A DNA stretch of 44,586 bases from an uncultured Flavobacteriales bacterium. GTDB taxonomy: Bacteria; Bacteroidota; Bacteroidia; Flavobacteriales_E; Vicingaceae. The notes under the pieces are model-generated. The model worked only from the letters and a program-made list of their open reading frames with translations. It did no database searches and was not told where the DNA came from. The stretch is taken from positions 1 through 44,586 of the forward strand of contig CAJWVX010000009.1 in assembly GCA_913048175.1 (NCBI GenBank), written 5' to 3'. A program made the translations under genes and the position numbers. This document shows, piece after piece, positions 9,197 through 30,833 of this stretch; positions within the stretch are counted from its first letter, which is position 1, and every line of letters starts with the position of its first letter.

Positions 9197-10225
9197 TTAT
9201 GCTTTTTTTAATGTAAAAGAAAATGTTGATCCAATTCCCTCCGTACTTCTTACATTTATTGTTTGGTTATGAGCCTCAATAATATGTTTTACAATAGAAA
9301 GACCAAGTCCTGTACCTCCGCTATCTCTTCCTCTATTTTTGTCTGTTCTGTAAAAGCGTTCAAACAAACGAGACAAATGTTTTTCCGCAACTCCCTGTCC
9401 ATTATCAGCCACTTCAACTAATATATTATCATGTAAGTTATGAAGCCTTACCAAAGTCTCCCCATTTTCTTTTCCATACTTAATTGCATTAACAATTAAA
9501 TTCACCAACACTTGATTTACTCCCTGATAATCAGCCATAACCCATAGAGCCTTAGTGGGTTCCTCTACAAATTTTAGTGTTATATTATTGGTTTTCGCAC
9601 TCATTTCTAAAGAACTCAAAACCTCTTTAATCAATTCTTTTAAATCAATCTTTTGAATATTTAATTCAATAGTCCCAGATTCTAATTTAGAAATCTCATC
9701 TAAACCTTCAATCAAAGAAATCATCCTATCAACTCCTTTATTCGCTTTTACTAAATATTTTACATTGATATTAGGATCTTCCAAACCGCCCTCTAGCAAT
9801 GTTAAAAGATATCCCTGAATATTAAATATTGGAGTTTTTAATTCATGAGATACATTTCCAACAAACTCTCTTCTATAACTTTCAAGTCCTTTTAATCTAT
9901 CTATTTCTTCTTTATTTAATTGAGCCCAATCTTCCACCTCAGCTTGTATCTGATTCAAACTAAATTCTTTTTGTTCTTCTCCTTTTTTTAATTTGAGGCT
10001 GTGAATTGTTCTGTGAATAACTTTAATTTTTTTATAAATGAACCTTTCTACGGCAATCCTAAATCCAGTATAAGAGGCTAAAAACGTAACTGGAAAAACC
10101 AATGCGATTAATGGGTAGTTAACTGTAGACATTAAATATTCTAACGCAAAAACAAGTAAGGTAATTGAAATCGCAACAACTAAAGATATTCTTAAAGCTA
10201 TTCCGTTGGGTGTTAAATCTTTCAT
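9197..10225 (-). CDS. membrane sensor histidine kinase, PhoR-like
   Basis: Two N-terminal TM segments; HisKA 'FVGNVSHELKTPIFNIQGYL'; HATPase 'NLIVNAIKYG', 'VADNGQGV', 'GGTGLGLSIVKHIIEAH'. Encoded next to an OmpR/PhoB-type regulator. Confidence 0.92.
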   Translation of the reverse strand: MKDLTPNGIALRISLVVAISITLLVFALEYLMSTVNYPLIALVFPVTFLASYTGFRIAVERFIYKKIKVIHRTIHSLKLKKGEEQKEFSLNQIQAEVEDWAQLNKEEIDRLKGLESYRREFVGNVSHELKTPIFNIQGYLLTLLEGGLEDPNINVKYLVKANKGVDRMISLIEGLDEISKLESGTIELNIQKIDLKELIKEVLSSLEMSAKTNNITLKFVEEPTKALWVMADYQGVNQVLVNLIVNAIKYGKENGETLVRLHNLHDNILVEVADNGQGVAEKHLSRLFERFYRTDKNRGRDSGGTGLGLSIVKHIIEAHNQTINVRSTEGIGSTFSFTLKKA

Positions 10226-10330: not shown

Positions 10331-11017
10331 TTAAATCGTTTGTGCTTCAAACTTGTACCCTACGCCTTTAACCGTTTTAATATAATTATCTCCCAACTTC
10401 TCTCTTAACTTTCTAATGTGCACATCAATCGTTCGATCTCCAACAACAACATCTCCACCCCAAACGCTACTTAGAATAACCTCTCTAGTAAATACTTTGC
10501 CTGGTTTAGATAATAATAACGCTAATAATTCAAACTCTTTTTTAGGAAAAGAAAGTTCCTTGTCATCTTTATAAACAAGGTATTTTTCTCTATCAATCTT
10601 TATTCCATTATTTGTTTCAGAAACAGCAGCTTTACCTCCGTCAGAAGCTCGTCTTAAAATAGCTTTAACCCTACTTATTAATAATCTGGGCTTTATTGGT
10701 TTTGTAATATAATCGTCTGCACCAGCATCAAATCCAGCAACCTGAGAGTAATCTTCTCCTCTAGCACTTAAAAAAGCTATTAACACATCTTTTAATCCTT
10801 CTGTATTTCTTAATTCGTGGCACGCTTCAATACCATCCATTTCAGGCATCATTACATCTAAAATAATTAAATCCGGATTAATCTGCTTAGCAATTTCTAT
10901 AGCCTCTTTTCCATTCGTAGATGTGGTAACATCATAGCCTTCCTTAGCTAAGTTATATCCTAAAAATTCAATGATGTCTGGTTCATCATCAACCAATAAT
11001 ATTTTTTCTTTAATCAT
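10331..11017 (-). CDS. OmpR/PhoB-family response regulator with canonical receiver
   Basis: 'ILLVDDEPDI', 'PDLIILDVMMPEMDGIE', 'AFLSAR', 'DDYITKPI', and winged helix 'DRTIDVHIRKLREKLGDNYIKTVKGVGYKFEA'. Confidence 0.95.
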   Translation of the reverse strand: MIKEKILLVDDEPDIIEFLGYNLAKEGYDVTTSTNGKEAIEIAKQINPDLIILDVMMPEMDGIEACHELRNTEGLKDVLIAFLSARGEDYSQVAGFDAGADDYITKPIKPRLLISRVKAILRRASDGGKAAVSETNNGIKIDREKYLVYKDDKELSFPKKEFELLALLLSKPGKVFTREVILSSVWGGDVVVGDRTIDVHIRKLREKLGDNYIKTVKGVGYKFEAQTI

Positions 11018-11064
11018 AACGATATAATTTTTATACGAAAGTACAACCCTTGCTCCGTAAGGAT

Positions 11065-11092
11065 GTTAATTTAATATTAATAAATTGTTTAA
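11065..11092 (+). promoter_or_regulatory. Pho-box-like tandem repeat (GTTAA/ATTAA/GTTTAA, 11-bp pitch)
   Basis: GTTAATTTAAT|ATTAATAAATT|GTTTAA with units starting at 11065, 11076 and 11087, about 50 bp upstream of the minus-strand PhoB-like gene. Confidence 0.55.
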
Positions 11093-11174: not shown

Positions 11175-11261
11175 GCAAGTATAAGATTCCTTTCATCATC
11201 AAATAACAATAGGGGTCTTTCTTTGCACCATAAATAATTATAAAACTAAAGATTGAAAAAA

Positions 11262-12611
11262 ATGAAAACAAAAAACTTATTATTAATCGGAGTAATTACT
11301 ATTGGATTACTAACAGCTTGCTCAAAAAAAGAAGGTTGTACAGATTTAACTGCAGAAAACTATAGTGCTGATGCAGAAAAAGATGATGGGTCATGTGAAT
11401 ACGCAGTTGAACCAACAACAGCAATAACAAGTAATATTGTTACCGTAACAGATGACGGAACAGGAACCGGAAGTACAACATGGACAAATGACAAAGTCTA
11501 TTTATTAGATGGGTTTGTTTTTGTAAATTCAGGACAAACACTTACAATTGAACCAGGTACAGTTATTAAAGGAAAGCCAGGTACAGGAACGAATGCTTCT
11601 GCATTAATTGTTGCTAGAGGTGCAACTATAAATGCTTGCGGAACAGCATCACAACCAATCATTTTTACTTTTGAAGCTGACCCATTAGACGGTTCTGTTC
11701 CAGCAACTACTACAGGTCAGTGGGGTGGTTTAATGATATTAGGGGATGCTATTTTAAACACAGTTCCAAGTTTTCAAAATATTGAAGGAATTCCTACAAG
11801 TGAAACAAGAGGATCTTACGGAGGAAGCAATGATGCTGATAATTCAGGATCGCTATGTTATGTTTCTATCAGACATGGAGGAACAGATATTGGAGCAGGA
11901 AACGAAATTAATGGATTAACTCTTGGTGGTGTTGGTTCAGGAACTTCTATTCATCACATAGAAATTGCTGCAAATGCTGATGATGGTGTTGAGTTTTTTG
12001 GAGGGGCTCCAAATCTAAAACACATACTAGTTGCTAACGTTTTAGATGATTCTTTCGATTACGATCAAGGATATAGAGGAAAAGGTCAGTTTTGGGTTGC
12101 TATTGAAAATGCAAATTCTGATAGAGGTGGAGAGCATGATGGAGGAACTTCTCCAGAGGATGGAACACCATATGCAACTCCAGTAATTTACAACTCCACT
12201 TATATTGGTAATGGTTCTAGTAGAGCATTAACTTTTAGAGATAATGCTGGTGGGGAATACCATAACTCTGTATTCCACAACTTTGGTAAAGGAATTGATA
12301 TTGAAGATTTAGCTTCAGGAGAAGATTCTAAAGCAAGATTAGATGCTGGACAGTTAAAATTTGCGGGAATTGTTCTTTCATCTATTGGAAGTAACAATAT
12401 TGTTGATAACAACGGTACAGATTTATCTGGACACCAAAGCATTACTAATGTTAGTACAACTACAGCTTCGATTACTGGTGCTAATCCAGTTCCAGCATCA
12501 AGCTTAGGATCAGGTGTTGCTTCTGCGGATGCTTGGTATGATAATGTAACTTATGTAGGTGCATTTAACGGAACAAACTGGGCACAAGGTTGGACACTAA
12601 CTTTTCCTTAA
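11262..12611 (+). CDS. lipoprotein with predicted right-handed beta-helix
   Basis: The track starts at TTG 11253; the in-frame ATG at 11262 gives 'MKTKNLLLIGVITIGLLTAC' (lipobox LTAC), then 'GCTDLTAENYSADAEKDDGSCEY' and Gly-rich beta-helix-like repeats. Confidence 0.85.
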   Translation: MKTKNLLLIGVITIGLLTACSKKEGCTDLTAENYSADAEKDDGSCEYAVEPTTAITSNIVTVTDDGTGTGSTTWTNDKVYLLDGFVFVNSGQTLTIEPGTVIKGKPGTGTNASALIVARGATINACGTASQPIIFTFEADPLDGSVPATTTGQWGGLMILGDAILNTVPSFQNIEGIPTSETRGSYGGSNDADNSGSLCYVSIRHGGTDIGAGNEINGLTLGGVGSGTSIHHIEIAANADDGVEFFGGAPNLKHILVANVLDDSFDYDQGYRGKGQFWVAIENANSDRGGEHDGGTSPEDGTPYATPVIYNSTYIGNGSSRALTFRDNAGGEYHNSVFHNFGKGIDIEDLASGEDSKARLDAGQLKFAGIVLSSIGSNNIVDNNGTDLSGHQSITNVSTTTASITGANPVPASSLGSGVASADAWYDNVTYVGAFNGTNWAQGWTLTFP

Positions 12612-12715: not shown

Positions 12716-12743
12716 ACTAACAAATACTTAACATTTGATTAAC
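12716..12743 (-). promoter_or_regulatory. Pho-box-like tandem repeat upstream of the TonB receptor
   Basis: ACTAAC (12716-12721), CTTAAC (12727-12732), ATTAAC (12738-12743): three units at exact 11-bp pitch. TTAAC is on the coding strand. Confidence 0.6.
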
Positions 12744-12786
12744 CCCTTAATTACGCAAGGGAAGTTTCTTTGCAAAATAAATAATA

Positions 12787-15597
12787 ATGAAAATGAAACG
12801 AATAATATCAATACTAATATCAGCTTGTTTAACAGGTTCAATTTTTGCTCAAGGAACAATACAAGGAAAAGTAAATAGCTCTGACGGTGAAGAGCTAATT
12901 GGAGCGACAGTACTTCTTAAAGGAACTACTACTGGATCTATGGTAGATATTGATGGCAACTTTAGAATAACAAATGTAGTAGCTGGAACATACAACGTAA
13001 TGTGCTCTTACATTTCATTCTCTTCAGATTCTGCAAAAATTACCGTTAAAGATGGTGAGGTAAGTTCATACAACTTTACATTAGGAACTTCCTCAATGGA
13101 GATTGAAACCTTTACCGTATCAGCAAAAGTTGAACGAAACAACGAAGCTTACCTACTTAACGTAAAGAAAAAAAGTGCAACAGTAATGGAGGCTATAGGC
13201 GCTAAAGAAATTGCAAAAAGAGGAGATGGCAATGCTGCAGCAGCAGCAAAGAGAGTTACAGGTTTAACGATAGAAGGTGGTAAGTATGTTTACGTAAGAG
13301 GTTTAAGTGATCGTTATAGTAAAACAACATTAAATAAAGCAGAAATACCAGGACTAGATCCAAACAGAAATTCAGTACAATTAGATCTTTTTCCAACAAG
13401 CATGATCGAAAACATGAAAGTTATTAAGTCTTTTAGTCCAGATTTACCAGGAAGTTTTACAGGAGGACTGGTAGATATTGAAACAAAAGATTTTCCTGAA
13501 CAATTTACACTTCAGTTTTCAACATCGTTAGGATACAATACTGAATCTAGTTTTAAAAATGATTTTTTAACTTATAATGGAGGCGGAACGGATGCTTTAG
13601 GTTTTGATGACGGAACTAGAAATGCTCCAAGTTCAGTTCAACAAATACCTGCACTTTTTGTAGATAATGATAGGCTTTCTAAGATTAGTAAATCGTTTAA
13701 TAAGGAAATGGATGTAAGTGAAAAAACATCTTTTTTAAATCAAAACTATTCCCTTTCTGTTGGTAATCAGAAAAAGCTATTCGGTAAAGAAATTGGATTT
13801 ATTACTGGCTTATCGTATTCTAAAAAGTACATCCATAGACAAAATGATGCATTTACAAATAGATATGAGCTTACCGGAAATGTTGCTAATGTTAATGAGC
13901 TAAATGCTACCAGAACCTTAAGTGATAATCGCTCTCAAGAGAATGTTTTATGGGGTGCTTTTGCAACAGTTTCCTACAAAATATCTCCAAACCATAAATT
14001 AGGTTTCAACTATTTAAGAAATCAAAATGGAATTAGTACCGCAACATTCCAAGAGGGAGAAATACCAGCAGACCAAACAGGATTATTTTTTCAAACCAGA
14101 GCTTTAGAATATGAACAAAATGCTTTGAGTAGTTATCAATCAAAAGGAGAGCATTATTTTGAAGGGCTTAAGAAATTAAAGGTAGATTGGATGTGGGCAT
14201 GGTCTGAGTCTAGTCAAAAACAGCCCGATTTACGGTACTTTTCTAACGATTATATCATAGAGGCAGATTCAAATAATTATAACATTCAAGCATCAATATA
14301 CCCAGTACCAACAAGGTTTTATAGAGACTTAAGCCAAACAACTGGTGACGGAAAAGTAAATTTTGAGTTTAATATAAAAGAAAAAGAAGGAAAAAATTCA
14401 AAAATAAAATTTGGTAGTGCTTTCTTAATTCAAGAGCGTGTTTTAACAGAAAACCGATACAACTATAGAACCCAAGGTAATTTAAATTACACTGGAAGTG
14501 TTGCCGATTATCTAAATAACAACAATATGAATTTACCAACAGCAGGAAACCCTGTTACTGATTATTTATATATTGAGGAAGCAACAGAAAGGCGCAATAG
14601 CTACGGTGCTGATCAAGAAATATTTGCAGGGTATTTAATGGCTGATATTTGGGCTACTAAAAAATTAAGAATGGTTGGTGGTGCAAGATTAGAAACTACA
14701 AACATAATAGTTAGAAGCTATGACCAATCGCAAGAACTAGGAGAATTAAAAGAAACAGATATTTTACCTGCACTAAACACATCTTATGCTTTAACAGAAA
14801 AGACTAATATCAGAGCCTCTTTATCTAGAACATTAGCAAGACCAACTTTTAGAGAGATAGCGCCATTTGCTACTTATGATTTTTCTACCAATTGGACTAT
14901 TGTAGGAAATCCAGATTTAGAAAGAACCTTGGTAGATAACATTGATTTTAGAGTTGAAACATACCCCAACTTTGGAGAAATAATTTCTGTAGGAGGTTTT
15001 TATAAGTCATTCACCAACCCTATAGAATTAGTATTTAACACACAAGCACAAAACGATGAGTTAACTTGGAGAAACATTGATAAAGCCACCGTTTATGGTG
15101 CAGAGTTTGAAATTAAAAAGAACCTTTCCTTTATTTCTGATACAGCAAACACGTTTACTGTTGGGGCTAACTTTACTTATGTTTTCTCTGAAGTTGGAAT
15201 TGATGAGCAAGAGTTAGACTTAATAAAGGCAAATGATGAAAATGCTGATGAAACAAGAAGAATGTTTGGACAGTCGCCATATATCGTTAACTTCTTTTTA
15301 GGATACAATAACGACACTATAGGCCTTTCTGCCAACTTAAGCTACAATGTTTCGGGCGAAAAAATTGCAGTTGTTGTGGTTGGAGCTACACCAAATGTAT
15401 ACCAAAAACCAGTGCATCAATTAGATTTTAACATCACTAAAAGAATAGGGAAAAAATTTAGTTTAAAATTTAAAGCTCAAAACATTCTTAATCCTATCAT
15501 TAAAAAAGCCTACGACTATAAAGAGCAAGAATACATCTTTAACTCATACAGAAGAGGGGCAACATTTAGCCTAGGTCTTAAATATTTAATTGGATAG
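12787..15597 (+). CDS. TonB-dependent outer-membrane receptor with N-terminal CarboxypepD_reg-like domain
   Basis: Signal peptide; 'GTIQGKVNSSDGEELIGATVLLKGTTTGSMVDIDGNFRITNVVAGTYNV'; plug 'YVYVRGLSDRYSKTTLNKAEIPGLDPNRNSVQLDLFPTSMIENMKVIKSFSPDLPGSFTGGLVDIETKDFPE'; C-terminal beta-barrel 'YRRGATFSLGLKYLIG'. Confidence 0.95.
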   Translation: MKMKRIISILISACLTGSIFAQGTIQGKVNSSDGEELIGATVLLKGTTTGSMVDIDGNFRITNVVAGTYNVMCSYISFSSDSAKITVKDGEVSSYNFTLGTSSMEIETFTVSAKVERNNEAYLLNVKKKSATVMEAIGAKEIAKRGDGNAAAAAKRVTGLTIEGGKYVYVRGLSDRYSKTTLNKAEIPGLDPNRNSVQLDLFPTSMIENMKVIKSFSPDLPGSFTGGLVDIETKDFPEQFTLQFSTSLGYNTESSFKNDFLTYNGGGTDALGFDDGTRNAPSSVQQIPALFVDNDRLSKISKSFNKEMDVSEKTSFLNQNYSLSVGNQKKLFGKEIGFITGLSYSKKYIHRQNDAFTNRYELTGNVANVNELNATRTLSDNRSQENVLWGAFATVSYKISPNHKLGFNYLRNQNGISTATFQEGEIPADQTGLFFQTRALEYEQNALSSYQSKGEHYFEGLKKLKVDWMWAWSESSQKQPDLRYFSNDYIIEADSNNYNIQASIYPVPTRFYRDLSQTTGDGKVNFEFNIKEKEGKNSKIKFGSAFLIQERVLTENRYNYRTQGNLNYTGSVADYLNNNNMNLPTAGNPVTDYLYIEEATERRNSYGADQEIFAGYLMADIWATKKLRMVGGARLETTNIIVRSYDQSQELGELKETDILPALNTSYALTEKTNIRASLSRTLARPTFREIAPFATYDFSTNWTIVGNPDLERTLVDNIDFRVETYPNFGEIISVGGFYKSFTNPIELVFNTQAQNDELTWRNIDKATVYGAEFEIKKNLSFISDTANTFTVGANFTYVFSEVGIDEQELDLIKANDENADETRRMFGQSPYIVNFFLGYNNDTIGLSANLSYNVSGEKIAVVVVGATPNVYQKPVHQLDFNITKRIGKKFSLKFKAQNILNPIIKKAYDYKEQEYIFNSYRRGATFSLGLKYLIG

Positions 15598-15607
15598 TCT
15601 TTAAAAT

Positions 15608-16384
15608 ATGTCGATTAACGCTAAAGAATATGAGGAAAGCTTACAAAGTGCAAAGCTAGTACAGCAAGGACTCTTACCTAAGAAAAGACACTTTAATCGA
15701 CTCTTTACCGATTCTTTTGTTTTTTACAGTCCTCAATATATTATTTCTGGAGATTTTTACTGGTTAGGAGAAAAGCATGGTTTAAAATACCTTGTAGTTG
15801 GTGATTGTACGGGACATGGAGTTTCTGCTGCATTACTATCAGTTTTAGCACTTAATTTGTTTGAGTATACGATTATGAACAAAAAGATAAAAAGAACCCA
15901 CAAGATATTACAGGAGGTTGATAAAAGATTTGTTGAAAGCTTTAAAGCTGCGCAACTAAAAAACTATGACACTCCCTGGATAGACCTTTCTATTATTTGT
16001 ATAAATGATGCAGAAAATAAGCTTTACTTTTCTTCAGCCAATAGGAAACTTCTAATTGTAGATAAAGACCAGAATTCAACTATTCTTAAAGGCTCAAAAT
16101 ACCCTGTAGGTGGTTGGCAAGTTGAAAAGAACAGAACGTTTGAATCACAAACTATTAGCTACTCTAAAGGAGATCAGCTATATTTAGGTTCAGATGGTTT
16201 TCAGGATCAAATTGGAGGTCCCAAGGATAAAAAATACAAATCAAAAAAATTGCACAACTTCTTAATTTCAAATAGTTACTCCGTATTAAACACCCAAAAA
16301 GAGAAGATCGAAGCAGAGTTTAATGGATGGAAGCTAAATAACAGTCAAACAGATGATGTTTGTATTGTAGGTATTAAATTATAG
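15608..16384 (+). CDS. PP2C/SpoIIE-family serine phosphatase without an obvious sensor domain
   Basis: 'SAKLVQQGLLP', 'YIISGDFYWLGEKHG', 'VVGDCTGHGVSAALLSVLALNL', 'DDVCIVGIKL'; only 258 aa. Confidence 0.9.
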   Translation: MSINAKEYEESLQSAKLVQQGLLPKKRHFNRLFTDSFVFYSPQYIISGDFYWLGEKHGLKYLVVGDCTGHGVSAALLSVLALNLFEYTIMNKKIKRTHKILQEVDKRFVESFKAAQLKNYDTPWIDLSIICINDAENKLYFSSANRKLLIVDKDQNSTILKGSKYPVGGWQVEKNRTFESQTISYSKGDQLYLGSDGFQDQIGGPKDKKYKSKKLHNFLISNSYSVLNTQKEKIEAEFNGWKLNNSQTDDVCIVGIKL

Positions 16385-16403: not shown

Positions 16404-17081
16404 TTATGCCAACTGATAACCAACTCCTTTAACAGTTTTAATTGTTTGTTCGCCTATCTTTTCTCTTATTTTTCTGATATGAACATCAATTATTCTATCG
16501 TTACTACTGGCCTCTTTTTGCCAGATACTTTTGTAAATTTCTTTTCTAGTAAAAACCTTTTGAGGATTCGTTAATAACAAATAGAGCATTTCAAATTCTT
16601 TACGTGGTAAAGTAACCTCTTCGTTTTCTTTATTTATTATATACCGACTCCTATCAATCTTTAATCCTTTATATGAAAGAATTTGAGGAATAGAACTAAT
16701 AGCAGTTTGTAACTTCCGCTTTAATAATGCATGAACTCTCCGCTGTAAAATTCTGGGATTAATTGGTCTAACAATATAATCATGAGCCCCAGCCTTAAAT
16801 GCTTCTATCTGAATATAGTCATCACTAGCTTCAGAAAAAAGAACAACAAAACCTGTTAATGCAGCCTCTGAGGTTAAACGATAACACAGCTCAATCCCAT
16901 CAGTATTAATGATGTCTAAATCTAATAGAACAATGTCTGGATTATATTTATAAAGCTCATTAATTTGTGTCTCTCCTGCGGTAGAGTAAACAAAAACCTC
17001 TGCACCTTCATTTCTGAAGGTCTTTGTTGTGTTGTCAAGCAATTCTTTATTGCTACTAAATATACTAATTCTTGATGCCAT
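16404..17081 (-). CDS. OmpR/PhoB-family regulator with degenerate (pseudo-)receiver domain
   Basis: Winged helix 'NDRIIDVHIRKIREKIGEQTIKTVKGVGYQLA' closely matches the 10331-11017 regulator. The receiver keeps 'IVLLDLDI' but has 'ISIFSSNKEL' in place of the DD pair and 'YIVRPI' in place of YI.KPI. Confidence 0.92.
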   Translation of the reverse strand: MASRISIFSSNKELLDNTTKTFRNEGAEVFVYSTAGETQINELYKYNPDIVLLDLDIINTDGIELCYRLTSEAALTGFVVLFSEASDDYIQIEAFKAGAHDYIVRPINPRILQRRVHALLKRKLQTAISSIPQILSYKGLKIDRSRYIINKENEEVTLPRKEFEMLYLLLTNPQKVFTRKEIYKSIWQKEASSNDRIIDVHIRKIREKIGEQTIKTVKGVGYQLA

Positions 17082-17119
17082 TTCTATTTATAAAATTAAT
17101 AGAACCAACAGCAGAAAGG

Positions 17120-17147
17120 GTTAACTTAAAGTTAAGCTAAGTTTAAT
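17120..17147 (+). promoter_or_regulatory. Pho-box-like tandem repeat upstream of the second regulator
   Basis: GTTAACTTAAA|GTTAAGCTAAG|TTTAAT with units at 17120, 17131 and 17142 (11-bp pitch). Confidence 0.6.
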
Positions 17148-17625
17148 ATTCTTTTTTATTAACGATTTGTCCTTTTTCATCCCACATAATCCAAGTACCA
17201 ACTTTCTGTCCTTTTAAATAGTTCATTAAATAACGTTTAACACCTCTCTCGTCCCAAATTTGCCACTCCCCATTCTTCTTTCCATTTGCATAAAAAGCTT
17301 CAGCCAGCTTAGTACCTTTTTGAGACCATCTTACCCATTTGCCGTTTTTCTTGCCATCCTCAAAAGCACCTTGCTCCATAATTTCGCCAGAAAAGTAATA
17401 GAACTCTACCTTGCCATTTTCAACACCATTTTTAACACCGTAAACCGCTTCTTTTTCGCCATTATCATAATAGGAAATGTAAGCTCCAGTATACTTTTTT
17501 AAAGATTTTGCGTTAACATAAACGCCTTCTTTTTTAATTATTTGTTGTCCAAACCCAAAAGCAGACACCAAAAAAAACACTACTAAAACTATTGTTCTTA
17601 ATCTCATATAAACTATTTTATCCAA
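17143..17625 (-). CDS. MORN/YwqK-like repeat protein, secreted
   Basis: Signal peptide, then repeats 'YYDNGEKEAVYGVKNGVENGKVEFYYFSGEIMEQGAFEDGKKNGKW...NGEWQIWDERGVKRYLMNYLKGQKVGTW'. Confidence 0.85.
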   Translation of the reverse strand: MDKIVYMRLRTIVLVVFFLVSAFGFGQQIIKKEGVYVNAKSLKKYTGAYISYYDNGEKEAVYGVKNGVENGKVEFYYFSGEIMEQGAFEDGKKNGKWVRWSQKGTKLAEAFYANGKKNGEWQIWDERGVKRYLMNYLKGQKVGTWIMWDEKGQIVNKKEY

Positions 17626-17672: not shown

Positions 17673-17993
17673 TTATTTCTCATTTAACTCAACAGTAACC
17701 TTTTCGTTACTCTTTGTGTTCAAAACAACTTCTTTGTTTTTATATGCAATTAAACTAAAAGCAATAATATGCTCTCCCTCAATAACATTGTTTATTGTAA
17801 AATTGCCATCAAAATCAGTATAAACAGTCGTTTCTTTACCATCTAACCACACTTTAACCCCAGTTAGGCTTTCTTGTGCGTCAACTACATTACCGCTAAT
17901 AGAACACATTTTTAATTCCTTATCACCCTTGTTATTGTTAGCAAATGCTAATGTAAAAGTAAATAGTGCTATAATCGTTACAATTGTTTTCAT
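17673..17993 (-). CDS. small secreted carboxypeptidase-regulatory-like (beta-sandwich) protein
   Basis: Signal peptide; 'SISGNVVDAQESLTGVKVWLDGKETTVYTDFDGNFTINNVIEGEHIIAFSLIAYKNKEVVL'. Confidence 0.85.
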   Translation of the reverse strand: MKTIVTIIALFTFTLAFANNNKGDKELKMCSISGNVVDAQESLTGVKVWLDGKETTVYTDFDGNFTINNVIEGEHIIAFSLIAYKNKEVVLNTKSNEKVTVELNEK

Positions 17994-18298: not shown

Positions 18299-19996
18299 CT
18301 AATGCTCTCCAGTAATTCCTTCCGTTACATTGATTACGTGATCTCCAACTTTTTCTAAAGAATTAAACAAGTCAGCATAAATAGCAGCACTTTTAAAGTT
18401 ATAATAACCTTTCTCTACACTTGCAAAATGCTCTTTTCTTAACGTTTTTCTAAACTTATTCAATGCATCTTCTTGTTCTTGTGCTTTAAGCATAGATACT
18501 CCACCATAACTTCCTTCAAGATTTCCACACATTGTAGTTAAATTCAACTCAACTAAATCAAACATGTCCAAAATATTCTTTCTCTGTTCAGGAGTAAAAT
18601 ACACCTTGCCCTCAATCTTACGTTCTAATCCTTTTGACATTTGATAATAGATATCGCCAATACGCTCTAAATCTCCAACAATACTTAACATCCCTCTTAC
18701 TTTTATAGATGAGTTTTCACTCATTTCGCCCTGAGAAACTTTGGTTAAATAGTCCGCTACATCTTGTTCTATTCTATCAGTAATGTCTTCGTATTTTTTA
18801 ACTCTAGCCAAAGTTTTGCTAACCTCTTTGTTTTCTAAATTCTCCGCAACTAAGCTTCGCACAAAACCATTCATCTTTTTTACAACATCTCCAAATTTAG
18901 ACACCTCTTTTTGCGCTTCAAATAAAGACATCTCAGGTGTTGACATCATTCCTGAGTTAATATATTCTAAATGATACTCTTCATCTGCGTCTCCTTTAGA
19001 TTTAACAGACTTAATAGCCAACTTAACTAATATTGGAACAAACCAAATCATAATTAAAACATTTACCAAGTTAAAAGCAGTATGGAAAATTGCTAATCCC
19101 ATCGGTGCACCTTCGGCAGTCATTGGGTCTGGAGAACCTAACAAATTAATTGCTATAGATCTTACTCCATCTAAAGCAGGGGTAAACGAAATTAAAAGAA
19201 CTGCCCACGTAACACCTACAATATTAAACATAGAGTGAATTCTTGCTGATCTTTTGGCGTGAACGTTTGCAGGTAAAGATGCTAACTCTGCAGTTATTGT
19301 AGTTCCAATATTTTCACCTAAAATCATTGCAGCTGCAACTTCAAAAGGAATAATACCACTAAAACAAAGCGTTTGAGTTAGCGCCATAGATGCACTTGAA
19401 GATTGAACGACAATTGTTAAAATTGTTCCAACAATAATAAAAAATATGTTACTTAAAAACCCGCTATCAGCATACGCTCCTAAAAAATTTAAGATTTCTG
19501 GATTATTCTTCACATCAGGCACTGCGTGCTTCAATTCAGATAGTCCCCAAAACAGAATAGCAAAACCAACAATAAATTGCCCAATATACTTTATTTTATT
19601 TTTTCTCATAAATAACATTGGAACTCCAATAGCTAATAAAGGAAGTGCCATTGCCGCAATTTTTACTTTGAACCCTAAAACAGCAACTAACCAACCTGTA
19701 ATAGTTGTTCCAATATTTGCTCCTAACATTATACCTGCAGACTCTACTAAAGAAAGTAAACCCGCATTTACAAAACTTACAGCCATTACAGTACTTGCAG
19801 AAGAAGACTGTACCAGACAGGTAACTAAAAATCCAGTTAAAACACCTAAATATCTATTCTTTGTCATAGTAGAAAGTATTCTTCTCATACTACTACCAGC
19901 GGCCATCTGAATACCTTCACTCATTATTTTCATCCCGTAAATGAAAAAACCAAGAGCTCCAATTAATTTTAATGCATCAATAAATCCAAAATCCAT
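18299..19996 (-). CDS. Na+/Pi cotransporter family protein with C-terminal PhoU-like domain
   Basis: 'LVQSSSASTVMAVSFVNAGLL', 'MLGANIGTTITGWLVA', second repeat 'VVQSSSASMALTQTLCFSGII', 'ILGENIGTTITAELAS', C-terminal helical PhoU-like region. Confidence 0.95.
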   Translation of the reverse strand: MDFGFIDALKLIGALGFFIYGMKIMSEGIQMAAGSSMRRILSTMTKNRYLGVLTGFLVTCLVQSSSASTVMAVSFVNAGLLSLVESAGIMLGANIGTTITGWLVAVLGFKVKIAAMALPLLAIGVPMLFMRKNKIKYIGQFIVGFAILFWGLSELKHAVPDVKNNPEILNFLGAYADSGFLSNIFFIIVGTILTIVVQSSSASMALTQTLCFSGIIPFEVAAAMILGENIGTTITAELASLPANVHAKRSARIHSMFNIVGVTWAVLLISFTPALDGVRSIAINLLGSPDPMTAEGAPMGLAIFHTAFNLVNVLIMIWFVPILVKLAIKSVKSKGDADEEYHLEYINSGMMSTPEMSLFEAQKEVSKFGDVVKKMNGFVRSLVAENLENKEVSKTLARVKKYEDITDRIEQDVADYLTKVSQGEMSENSSIKVRGMLSIVGDLERIGDIYYQMSKGLERKIEGKVYFTPEQRKNILDMFDLVELNLTTMCGNLEGSYGGVSMLKAQEQEDALNKFRKTLRKEHFASVEKGYYNFKSAAIYADLFNSLEKVGDHVINVTEGITGEH

Positions 19997-20058
19997 TTTT
20001 CTTTGTTTTAATTTTTAGCAAAAATATTGCAGTTTTGTTATTTCCAAATAAAATCAAT

Positions 20059-20075
20059 GTTAAGTAATTGTTAAG
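20059..20075 (+). promoter_or_regulatory. Pho-box-like direct repeat upstream of the Na/Pi cotransporter
   Basis: GTTAAGTAATT|GTTAAG: identical hexamers at 20059 and 20070, 11-bp pitch. Confidence 0.55.
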
Positions 20076-24302: not shown

Positions 24303-24369
24303 CTCTTTAATTTCTTGTTATCTATTTTATCGATATCAGACAAAAATATCGAGCTAATTAGAACATAGC

Positions 24370-24408
24370 GTTACTAGATGGTTATTGATATGTTAAGTTT
24401 ACGTTAAC
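24370..24408 (+). promoter_or_regulatory. Pho-box-like tandem repeat upstream of the porin
   Basis: GTTAC (24370), GTTAT (24381), GTTAAG (24392), GTTAAC (24403): four units at exact 11-bp pitch. Confidence 0.62.
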
Positions 24409-24430
24409 AATAATTAATTAGAAATAAAAA

Positions 24431-29900: not shown

Positions 29901-30081
29901 CAATGTTCATTTAATAATACAAGATAATGGCTTAGGTTTGCCAAAAGAAATAAATTACAAAGAGACAGACTCTTTAGGGCTGCAATTAGTAATAACATTA
30001 GTAGAACAAATAAGCGGAACAGTAAAACTGGACAACAATAAAGGAGCGAAGTTTACTATTATATTTAAAAAAGAACAATAA
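26908..30081 (+). CDS. soluble multi-PAS/GAF sensor histidine kinase (HisKA_2 type)
   Basis: TTG start; several PAS modules, GAF-like region 'KCKAFVGIPLKIKNKTIGVLSVQSYDNE', 'EVLLKEVHHRVKNNLQVISSILNLQSSYV', HATPase 'LIINELVSNAIKYAF...IIQDNGLGLP'. No TM segment seen. Confidence 0.93.
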   Translation: MDYSKKTKKDLIKEIQFLKEDFLCKKEQEANKQKNVELHLKENEEKYRTLFTKNLAGVFITEEEIILDCNNSFAKIFGYKSRVELIGKNVECLYFYKNDRDKYIEQLLKNDFLSNHIIKHKNKNGKEIWISANVYLKDNRRIEGTLVDITEQVKFEENNRKKEENYKELTENSPYGVCVHIDGNIVYVNKKALEIIGVDLNSKSNFYDFILPENHQNVKERTERALNGEDVPFKEFSIKKSNNKIIYIKGKPTLFNYQGKRAVQVVFNDITFEKDLFKEKLRATIAEESNKILQKEINHRKKIEEKLIENQKYTQNVINSSLDIICASDKEGNIIEFNKAAEKAFGYTLKELLGKNISIIYALKEDHINISKQLLDTGSFIGEVKNINKNGKLFTSYLTASVLYNDNNEQIGTMGVSRDITELKEAENQLIESEERYKDILENATDLIQSLDKYGNIIYVNEAWKKTLGYNSEEIIGKNIFEIIHPDCINKCKIFFNTINNSLTNKSHVELIEFKTKKGKKIIVEGNVSVKIKNNKVESTRSILRNVTEELWEETKQKIYNNIATIVVEKVVAEEIYEGIRKELGKVMNTEIFVISYSLDDNILTFPYYYDNVRSKGIIDKKDRIKGNGINEYFLKQKNSKLLKRDDLDFIINKGEYNVLGKKCKAFVGIPLKIKNKTIGVLSVQSYDNENEYSKKSMDILDFISGTIALTVQRKQDQNIISKQSYKLKSIIENSTHLFWSYDINKGVTSSNKNFVKYIKQTYGKNAEVKNRLNKRVRFSNEEEHTFWNKKYAEVFKGNSQQFLSKKLNKYGKEVVKEVFLNPIYNEDGKIIEVSGIAHDITEKTISEKKLKESLKEKEVLLKEVHHRVKNNLQVISSILNLQSSYVKDEKILDILRESQNRIKSMSFIHESLYQNTDFSEINFSEYIVSLSKNLVHSYGIYDDLIDLNMSVGNISLNLDLSIPCGLIINELVSNAIKYAFLDKEKGKINIKLFEKNDNVHLIIQDNGLGLPKEINYKETDSLGLQLVITLVEQISGTVKLDNNKGAKFTIIFKKEQ

Positions 30082-30833
30082 TGTCAAAAAACAACATTTT
30101 AGTTATAGAAGACGAGGCAATCGTATCTAAAGATATACAACAAAGCTTAAAAAAATTAGGTTACAATATTGTTGGATCTGCCGCAACCGGAGAAAAAGCG
30201 GTTGAATTAGCAAAACAAACAAAACCTGATTTAGTTTTGATGGATATTATGCTAAAAGGAGAAATGAGCGGAATAGATGCAGCAGAAAAAATTAGAGAAA
30301 CATTAAATGTTCCTGTTATTTATTTAACGGCTTATGCTGATGAAAATACTCTAGCAAAAGCTAAGGTAACTGAGCCTTATGGCTATATTATTAAGCCATT
30401 TAAAGAAGTTGATTTACATACATCTATAGAAATGGCACTTTATAAATACTCTAAAGAAAGAGAGGTTATTAAAGAAAGAGATTTTCTTTATTCTTTAGTT
30501 GAAAACAATGAATCTGAAGGAGTTATTTTTGTTAAATCCAATTCAAGATTAGTAAAGGTTAAAACAAATGAGATTCTTTTTGTTGAAGCTTTAAAAGATT
30601 ATGTTGTTGTTAATGTTGGTGATGTGAGATATACTATTCACTCAACAATGAAAGAAATACAAAAGAAATTACCTACTAAAGAATTTCAAAGAATTCATCG
30701 CTCCTATATTGTTCGTTTAGATAAAATTGTTGCAATCGAACAGCCAAATATTGTTATAGAGGGTGGTAAAAAAATGTTGCCAATAGGAGGATCTTATAAA
30801 GAAGAGCTTTTTAGCAGAATAAATTTAGTTTAA
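30081..30833 (+). CDS. LytTR-family response regulator
   Basis: Receiver 'ILVIEDEAIV', 'LVLMDIML', 'YLTAYAD', 'YIIKPF'; LytTR domain 'ILFVEALKDYVVVNVGDVRYTIHSTMKEIQKKLPTKEFQRIHRSYIVRLDKI'. Confidence 0.95.
   Translation: MSKNNILVIEDEAIVSKDIQQSLKKLGYNIVGSAATGEKAVELAKQTKPDLVLMDIMLKGEMSGIDAAEKIRETLNVPVIYLTAYADENTLAKAKVTEPYGYIIKPFKEVDLHTSIEMALYKYSKEREVIKERDFLYSLVENNESEGVIFVKSNSRLVKVKTNEILFVEALKDYVVVNVGDVRYTIHSTMKEIQKKLPTKEFQRIHRSYIVRLDKIVAIEQPNIVIEGGKKMLPIGGSYKEELFSRINLV

Follow-up and report, generated by a model that had tools for sequence, protein, structure and literature searches.

Here we describe RR2, the name used for a PhoB paralogue encoded in the Pho block of the window (the whole stretch of 44,586 nucleotides that was analysed). 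With confidence a little short of evenly balanced, we propose that RR2 is a starvation-induced, phosphorylation-independent competitor at Pho boxes that limits PhoB output as negative feedback. The proposal builds on features read from sequence, namely conservation of the gene, loss of the acidic pair of the receiver, loss of the sigma-contacting loop, retained DNA contacts, a Pho promoter and purifying selection. From these we infer three steps: PhoB would activate RR2, RR2 would bind the boxes, and repression would arise by competition.

How pseudo-receiver regulators are switched on and off has been described as unknown (PMC12632262). For RR2 the answer may be readable from the genome, with the partner system making the protein through a promoter of its own class. 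If so, a two-component regulon could acquire negative feedback by simple means, and the scheme would bear on how marine Bacteroidota pace phosphorus scavenging. A literature search whose reach lay mostly outside subscription journals returned no description of such a PhoB paralogue.

Table 1. Features of the window that bear on RR2 (coordinates are positions in the window).
Feature	Position	Strand	Basis
RR2, OmpR/PhoB-type response regulator with pseudo-receiver, 225 aa	16404..17081	(-)	Domains, alignment, tree clade
RR2 codons S9-S10, place of the Mg-binding acidic pair (DD)	17052..17057	(-)	Alignment with orthologues and intact copies
RR2 codons 188-194 (QKEASSN), place of the PhoB sigma-contacting transactivation loop	16500..16520	(-)	Alignment; PMC3973317
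RR2 Pho box, three TTAAC units at 11-bp spacing	17114..17146	(-)	Conserved in 21/22 orthologues
RR2 -7 element TAATTTTA, 26 bp from the start of the last box unit	17091..17098	(-)	Spacing scan, genome pattern search
phoB Pho promoter, two units and -7 element	11036..11080	(-)	Pattern search
TonB-dependent receptor Pho promoter, three units and -7 element; candidate shared target	12717..12772	(+)	
Na/Pi cotransporter Pho promoter	20019..20063	(-)	Pattern search
OprP-type porin Pho promoter, four units; -7 element at 26+11 bp from the third unit	24341..24418	(-)	
PhoR-type histidine kinase, HisKA/HATPase_c; no other Pfam domain detected	9197..10225	(-)	
PhoB, canonical, intact quintet; presumed activator of RR2	10331..11017	(-)	
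Beta-helix-like lipoprotein; positional counterpart of F. johnsoniae FII (Fjoh_0546)	11253..12611	(+)	
TonB-dependent receptor; convergent neighbour of RR2 in most genomes	12787..15597	(+)	
SpoIIE-type phosphatase; sporadic neighbour, outside the conserved unit	15608..16384	(+)	
MORN-repeat protein; conserved neighbour upstream of RR2	17143..17625	(-)	
Small exported CarboxypepD_reg-like protein; conserved neighbour, preceded by a Pho-like box of its own	17673..17993	(-)	
Na/Pi cotransporter with PhoU domain	18299..19996	(-)	Pfam

Receiver and descent of RR2

RR2 matches the Pfam families Response_reg (51.6 bits; cut-off 30.2) and Trans_reg_C (82.7 bits; cut-off 26.2), and its predicted fold is that of an ordinary OmpR/PhoB regulator (pLDDT 83; monomer model from 24 family sequences). 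Both domains and the fold thus place it among OmpR/PhoB-type response regulators. A structure search with the model returned RpaA, MtrA, DrrB and KdpE as the best solved relatives, and the matches also include the atypical regulators HP1043 (2hqr), CosR, RitR and GlnR. Identity to the window's PhoB is 33% in the receiver and 55% in the DNA-binding domain. RR2 scores far below the curated cut-offs of the PhoB equivalog models (125.1 bits against 296.2 for TIGR02154; 132 against 270 for NF053854), but this score alone is a weak criterion, because the canonical PhoB of the window does not reach them either (223.4 and 211.7 bits, respectively). The intact phosphorylation quintet and adjoining PhoR of a PhoB equivalog are likewise not found in RR2.

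In place of the acidic pair, RR2 has S9-S10 followed by an Asn; it retains the phosphoacceptor Asp (D54) and the Ser (S83) and carries R105 where the Lys would stand. In the window's PhoB the quintet DD/D/S/K is intact. We compared RR2 within a genus group, consisting of the window's genus (g1) and its nearest neighbour genus (g16; 16 RR2 orthologues in total), and across the family, where 42 intact PhoB copies were set against 32 sequences with degenerate receivers. Both DD positions are non-acidic in 16/16 genus-group orthologues, whereas DD is kept in 42/42 intact family copies; no orthologue restores the pair, which argues against a strain-specific change. A sequence-only reading of this DNA had reported the loss of the acidic pair and the retention of the Asp, and both observations hold. 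It had also reported loss of the Lys, which is true of the window's protein but not general: Arg stands there in only 2 of the 16 orthologues, those of the window and one sister species, and the change is recent. Further differences surround the active site. The residue after the conserved Thr (T+1) is Ala in 42/42 intact copies and in 0/32 degenerate ones, which carry Glu, Lys, Asp, Asn or another residue, and the gamma-turn Pro (D+4) is present in 42/42 intact but 1/32 degenerate copies.

A pseudo-receiver has been defined as a recognisable receiver that lacks at least one of DD, D, T and K (PMC12632262). Judged by its residues, RR2 is by this definition an atypical response regulator with a pseudo-receiver, although not an aspartate-less receiver (ALR), since D54 is kept, and normal phosphorylation of such a site is not to be expected. 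Phosphorylation by PhoR or acetyl phosphate through some unusual chemistry could be argued from the retention of D in 15/16, S/T in 16/16 and K in 14/16 genus-group orthologues. We consider it very improbable: neither DD position is acidic, the position that follows is acidic in only 1/16, T+1 is bulky or charged instead of Ala, and several clade members, comprising copies from other genera and one from g16, have E, P or A in place of the Asp itself.

The surfaces of the receiver have diverged unevenly. Residues of the alpha4-beta5-alpha5 face are conserved, as are the Y-T coupling residues (S/T and Y/F; 32/32 degenerate copies), and the pairing of WhiI with BldM through their receivers (PMC12632262) offers a precedent for a receiver that pairs with that of PhoB, or else binds PhoR, and so alters PhoB phosphorylation and not box occupancy. 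Such a heterodimer or decoy seems improbable to us. In alpha1, a main PhoR-docking helix, RR2-PhoB identity is 22%, compared with 78% within PhoB. In helices 4 and 5, genus-group RR2 proteins differ in charge from PhoB (A94E in 12/16, D97K in 15/16, S115K in 13/16), which suggests a private RR2 homodimer interface. The strong retention of DNA-binding residues described below would also be left unexplained.

We searched 46 genomes of the family and then extracted the neighbourhoods. RR2 orthologues are present in 12/13 other genomes of the window's genus and in 2/4 genomes of g16, and a PhoB-like paralogue with a degenerate receiver was found in 31/46 family genomes and 10/16 genera, counted on mostly draft assemblies in which some absences may be gaps. 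The remoter copies occupy the same slot in g4, lie elsewhere in g6 and stand beside the Na/Pi cotransporter in g2, g7, g9, g10 and g13. In a maximum-likelihood tree built without the catalytic columns, 31 of the 32 degenerate sequences form one clade (91/99) apart from canonical PhoB. The AU test did not reject a single family clade that includes the long-branched G040 copy (p=0.41), and the grouping stayed nearly the same (2 changes) in a tree of the DNA-binding domain from which the loop had been removed. Taken together, these results make one old duplication the simplest history, with long branches leaving fine placements unsure.

Branch lengths show that RR2 evolves faster than PhoB, as would be expected of a decaying pseudogene, and an artefact of the metagenome-assembled genome might also be suspected. 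We rule out both, together with strain-specific decay: the ORF is intact in 31 genomes, its slot and promoter are conserved, and dN/dS lies well below 1 (0.05-0.20 for RR2 pairs where measurable), which indicates purifying selection. On this comparative evidence the gene is real and conserved, and no strain oddity.

In five other genera the degenerate paralogue lies divergent from a Na/Pi cotransporter gene and has lost the phosphoacceptor Asp (Pro in 6/7, Ala in 1/7; L070:7399-8088, L099:7087-7752, L100:6861-7553, L102:7201-7893, L103:6775-7467, L108:7396-8064 and L109:7048-7716). Several of these Asp-less paralogues keep box-like units upstream.

Sigma-contacting loop and DNA-reading residues

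In PhoB, the loop between helices 2 and 3 contacts sigma, and the substitutions W184R, G185R, V190M and D192G abolish activation by the Escherichia coli protein (PMC3973317). The loop is nearly invariant in the family's canonical PhoBs (WGG[DE]VVVGD; GGDVVVG over the RR2 codons in this genome's PhoB) and has been replaced in RR2, where mean identity to PhoB falls to 1%, against 72% in the recognition helix and 80% in beta5. G185 is present in 38/42 PhoB and 2/32 RR2-type sequences, V190 in 42/42 and 6/32, and D192 (or E) in 42/42 and 3/32, being lost in 29/32; W184 is kept throughout the RR2-type sequences. The window's own RR2 has lost G185 and V190 but has an Asp at the D192 position (NDR) as well as the Trp at 184, so loss of the sigma surface is not total in this species. 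Nonetheless, the set of sigma-loop residues expected of a PhoB equivalog (W184, G185, V190 and D192) is not found in RR2, which has probably lost, on this alignment, the ability to recruit RNA polymerase in the manner of PhoB.

The residues that read DNA tell the opposite story. The contacts R193, D196, H198, R203, T217 and Y223 (E. coli numbering) are invariant in the 32 RR2-type sequences, and R200, K201 and K219 are kept in 31/32. The exception is T194, changed to I/V in 22/32, which might shift box preference. The conservation strongly suggests that RR2 reads the same Pho boxes as PhoB. The earlier description of the DNA-binding domain as nearly a copy of PhoB's is therefore apt for the recognition helix and wing, which are near-identical, and not for the domain as a whole or for its entirely different transactivation loop. 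The replacement of this loop had escaped that reading, as had the full Pho promoter with its -7 element described below.

A regulator that reads the same boxes but lacks the activator surface would have competition at Pho boxes as its most economical outcome, and we hold it at about even probability that RR2 represses Pho promoters. An alternative loop in RR2 could contact RNA polymerase otherwise, as ChxR and other OmpR-family activators have unrelated loops. The first reading had left open whether the paralogue sustains, tunes or competes with PhoB output; loss of the sigma-contacting loop favours competing or limiting over sustaining.

Pho promoter and gene neighbourhood

The RR2 gene has a Pho box of its own, as had been claimed, with the units TTAAACTTAGC-TTAACTTTAAG-TTAACCCTTTC (minus strand) matching the consensus at 14/15 positions (shuffle p=0.01). 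The box is significant against shuffles (p<=0.05) in all but one of 22 orthologues, at 41-79 bp (mostly 56-79 bp) from the ORF start. A -7 element follows, and in a scan of spacings it reaches 5.14 of 6 at exactly 26 bp, with no other distance scoring above 3.05. The same scan peaks at 26 for the TonB receptor, phoB and Na/Pi cotransporter promoters and at 37 for OprP. Thus the phoB, TonB-receptor, transporter, porin and RR2 promoters share a common geometry, in which TTAAC units recur directly at 11-bp steps and a TAnnTTTG -7 element stands 26 bp from the start of the last unit. The porin promoter (24341-24418) shows a shift of exactly one unit, its -7 element lying 37 bp, and not 26 bp, from the third unit.

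When no more than one mismatch is allowed, the pattern of two units plus the -7 element occurs at four sites in the 3.5-Mb genome, two of which are the promoters of RR2 and the TonB receptor. Allowing up to two mismatches raises the number to 24 sites genome-wide; five of these lie in this 44.6-kb contig, against an expectation of about 0.3. Hits outside the contig are at chance level (24 in total genome-wide, against 26 for a reversed-pattern control), and no ORF of at least 90 aa starts just downstream of the two best of them; we therefore dropped the definition of a genome-wide Pho regulon from this pattern. RR2 combines a promoter box, the regulon-specific spacing and retention of both in orthologues. 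From the conserved box and -7 geometry, RR2 is predicted to belong to the Pho regulon and to be transcribed from a promoter of its own, not merely by read-through from the MORN-repeat gene. Most likely, by this promoter evidence, RR2 is made upon Pho induction. The description of RR2 as a phosphorylation-independent paralogue on the PhoB circuit is well supported in this sense, with DD lost in every genus-group orthologue, the T+1 Ala lost in every degenerate copy, and the DNA contacts and Pho promoter kept.

The best rival to competition starts from the same promoters. Sigma contact is needed only from the proximal unit, so in boxes with three or four units RR2 could fill upstream units beside a proximal phosphorylated PhoB, stabilise it, and prolong or sensitise the response as positive feedback. 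Its Pho promoter, the tandem DNA-contact residues and the wing are compatible with such a helper in mixed arrays, which we nevertheless regard as unlikely: no feature of the RR2 sequence favours upstream units, and the helper model alone does not explain repeated loss of the sigma loop in unrelated lineages.

In genomes of g1 and g16, the usual order is the CarboxypepD-like gene, the MORN gene, RR2, the convergent TonB receptor and FII-type lipoprotein genes, and phoB-phoR. No kinase gene adjoins RR2 in the window, in agreement with the sequence-only reading. RR2 and the FII lipoprotein/TonB-receptor module are present or absent together in these two genera, both being absent only in G016, G043 and G045. 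Co-occurrence fails as a family-wide rule: G014 has the paralogue without FII, and G007, G036 and G041 show the reverse.

The SpoIIE-type phosphatase gene is convergent with RR2, as that reading noted, but as a clue it has little reach: of the 13 genomes in the genus that carry RR2, only 3 have it as a neighbour (those of the window, G019 and G020). Its presence there, and beside or near the second regulator in another family of the class (f20; L149, L153), would suit a regulator that reads some other input, either a ligand or Ser/Thr phosphorylation removed by the phosphatase, and serves its own gene set. This we find highly improbable: beyond the sporadic occurrence, the closest phosphatase relatives in g6 lie on contigs other than that of RR2, and no serine specific to genomes with the phosphatase was found. 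The phosphatase is thus unsupported as a regular partner of RR2. Stand-alone SpoIIE-type phosphatases occur near a second regulator in two unrelated families, in a few genomes each (window 15608-16384; L044:1964-2734; L046:7670-8488; L149:6624-7532; L153:10694-11548).

A search of this genome (90% complete) gave no PstB exceeding the curated cut-off, although 14/14 control genomes had PstB matches, 13 of them over it. Phosphate may be imported by the Na/Pi cotransporter with its PhoU domain. Some members of the genus have two phoB loci (L063 and L048 in G017; L064 and L041 in G026), one with RR2, the TonB receptor and the lipoprotein, and the other with the Na/Pi cotransporter adjoining phoB. 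A further response-regulator-like ORF of the window (30081-30833; 250 aa, 31% identity to PhoB) follows a 1057-aa ORF and has no Pho box upstream.

Proposed mechanism and precedents

Under the competition proposal, an old PhoB duplicate would have a receiver no longer switchable by phosphorylation, and its activity would be set by the amount made. During phosphate starvation, PhoR would phosphorylate PhoB, which would drive RR2 transcription from the Pho promoter. RR2 would then occupy Pho boxes through the retained PhoB helix and wing, probably as a phosphorylation-independent dimer formed through the conserved alpha4-beta5-alpha5 face. It would take the place of PhoB on the promoter-proximal unit but fail to recruit RNA polymerase there. 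As a net effect, the Pho response, RR2's own promoter included, would be capped or shaped by delayed negative feedback. Against a uniform picture, some members of the clade (those of g2, g7, g9, g10 and g13) adjoin a transporter, outside this Pho block.

PhoB (TIGR02154/NF053854) represents the parent family of RR2, with the same domains, recognition helix, wing, Pho block and promoter architecture; RR2 lacks its acidic pair, sigma loop and kinase partner, and has an altered gamma-turn Pro and T+1. ChxR, HP1043, CosR and GlnR are stand-alone regulators that, like RR2, join a pseudo-receiver to a winged helix. RR2 differs from them in having a canonical paralogue in the same cell and regulon, in keeping the DNA-reading residues of that paralogue and in having lost the sigma loop. 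Atypical OmpR/PhoB members can be dimeric or active without phosphorylation (PMC12632262, PMC3960148), and one recognised model is a pseudo-receiver that is always active and is regulated solely through its expression (PMC12632262).

Two further systems resemble parts of the proposed circuit. In the CmrRST system of Clostridioides difficile, the gene for the pseudo-receiver regulator CmrT is embedded alongside an ordinary kinase and regulator, which are presumed to govern its expression (PMC12632262). This serves as a precedent for transcriptional control of a pseudo-receiver by a partner system. CmrT shares an operon with CmrRS and promotes phenotypes, whereas RR2 stands apart as a unit, is served by a Pho promoter of its own and has lost the activation loop. 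The OmpR-family regulator TctD of Pseudomonas aeruginosa represses PhoB-dependent promoters by binding beside the PhoB site, directly downstream of it (PMC4513871). By analogy, TctD may serve as a functional precedent for RR2 opposing PhoB at shared promoters, although RR2 is a PhoB paralogue with PhoB-type DNA contacts and shows no sign of a separate site.

For the locus, the closest described counterpart is phoBR of F. johnsoniae (PUSIV, Fjoh_0541-0549). The part of the published account used here lists PhoBR, OprP, a TonB receptor, the FII lipoprotein and a glycosyltransferase, and places the receptor and lipoprotein among the genes strongly induced by Pi depletion (PMC8115612). The window's block shares these kinds of gene with it as far as that part extends, and the same part describes no second regulator (PMC8115612).

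Second PhoB copies without the second acidic residue (DD2) also occur elsewhere in the class, in families f20 and f35, and several adjoin the same genes for the TonB receptor and lipoprotein. Once these lineages were added, one origin for all degenerate second PhoBs was rejected by the AU test (p=0.017), and the f20 and f35 copies are apparently of independent origin. We suggest, more tentatively and as something less than an even prospect, that a PhoB duplicate became a starvation-induced Pho-box competitor, blind to both phosphorylation and RNA polymerase, in a whole family of marine Bacteroidota and, by a separate path, in one or more other lineages of the class. If true, the regulon would possess a dedicated protein brake derived from its activator, stripped of the surfaces for input and output but still carrying the DNA address.

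The f20 and f35 copies (L119-L132, L134 and L136; L142:7912-8595, L149:7638-8321, L144, L147, L148, L150 and L151) have characteristics of their own. The f20 copies and several from f35 have another residue in place of the second acidic one (D-T-D, D-S-D) and mostly keep D, T and K. The sigma loop is changed, with D192 replaced by Asn in all 15. In f35, the second phoB gene adjoins TonB receptor and lipoprotein genes in several genomes, often with a Pho-like box.
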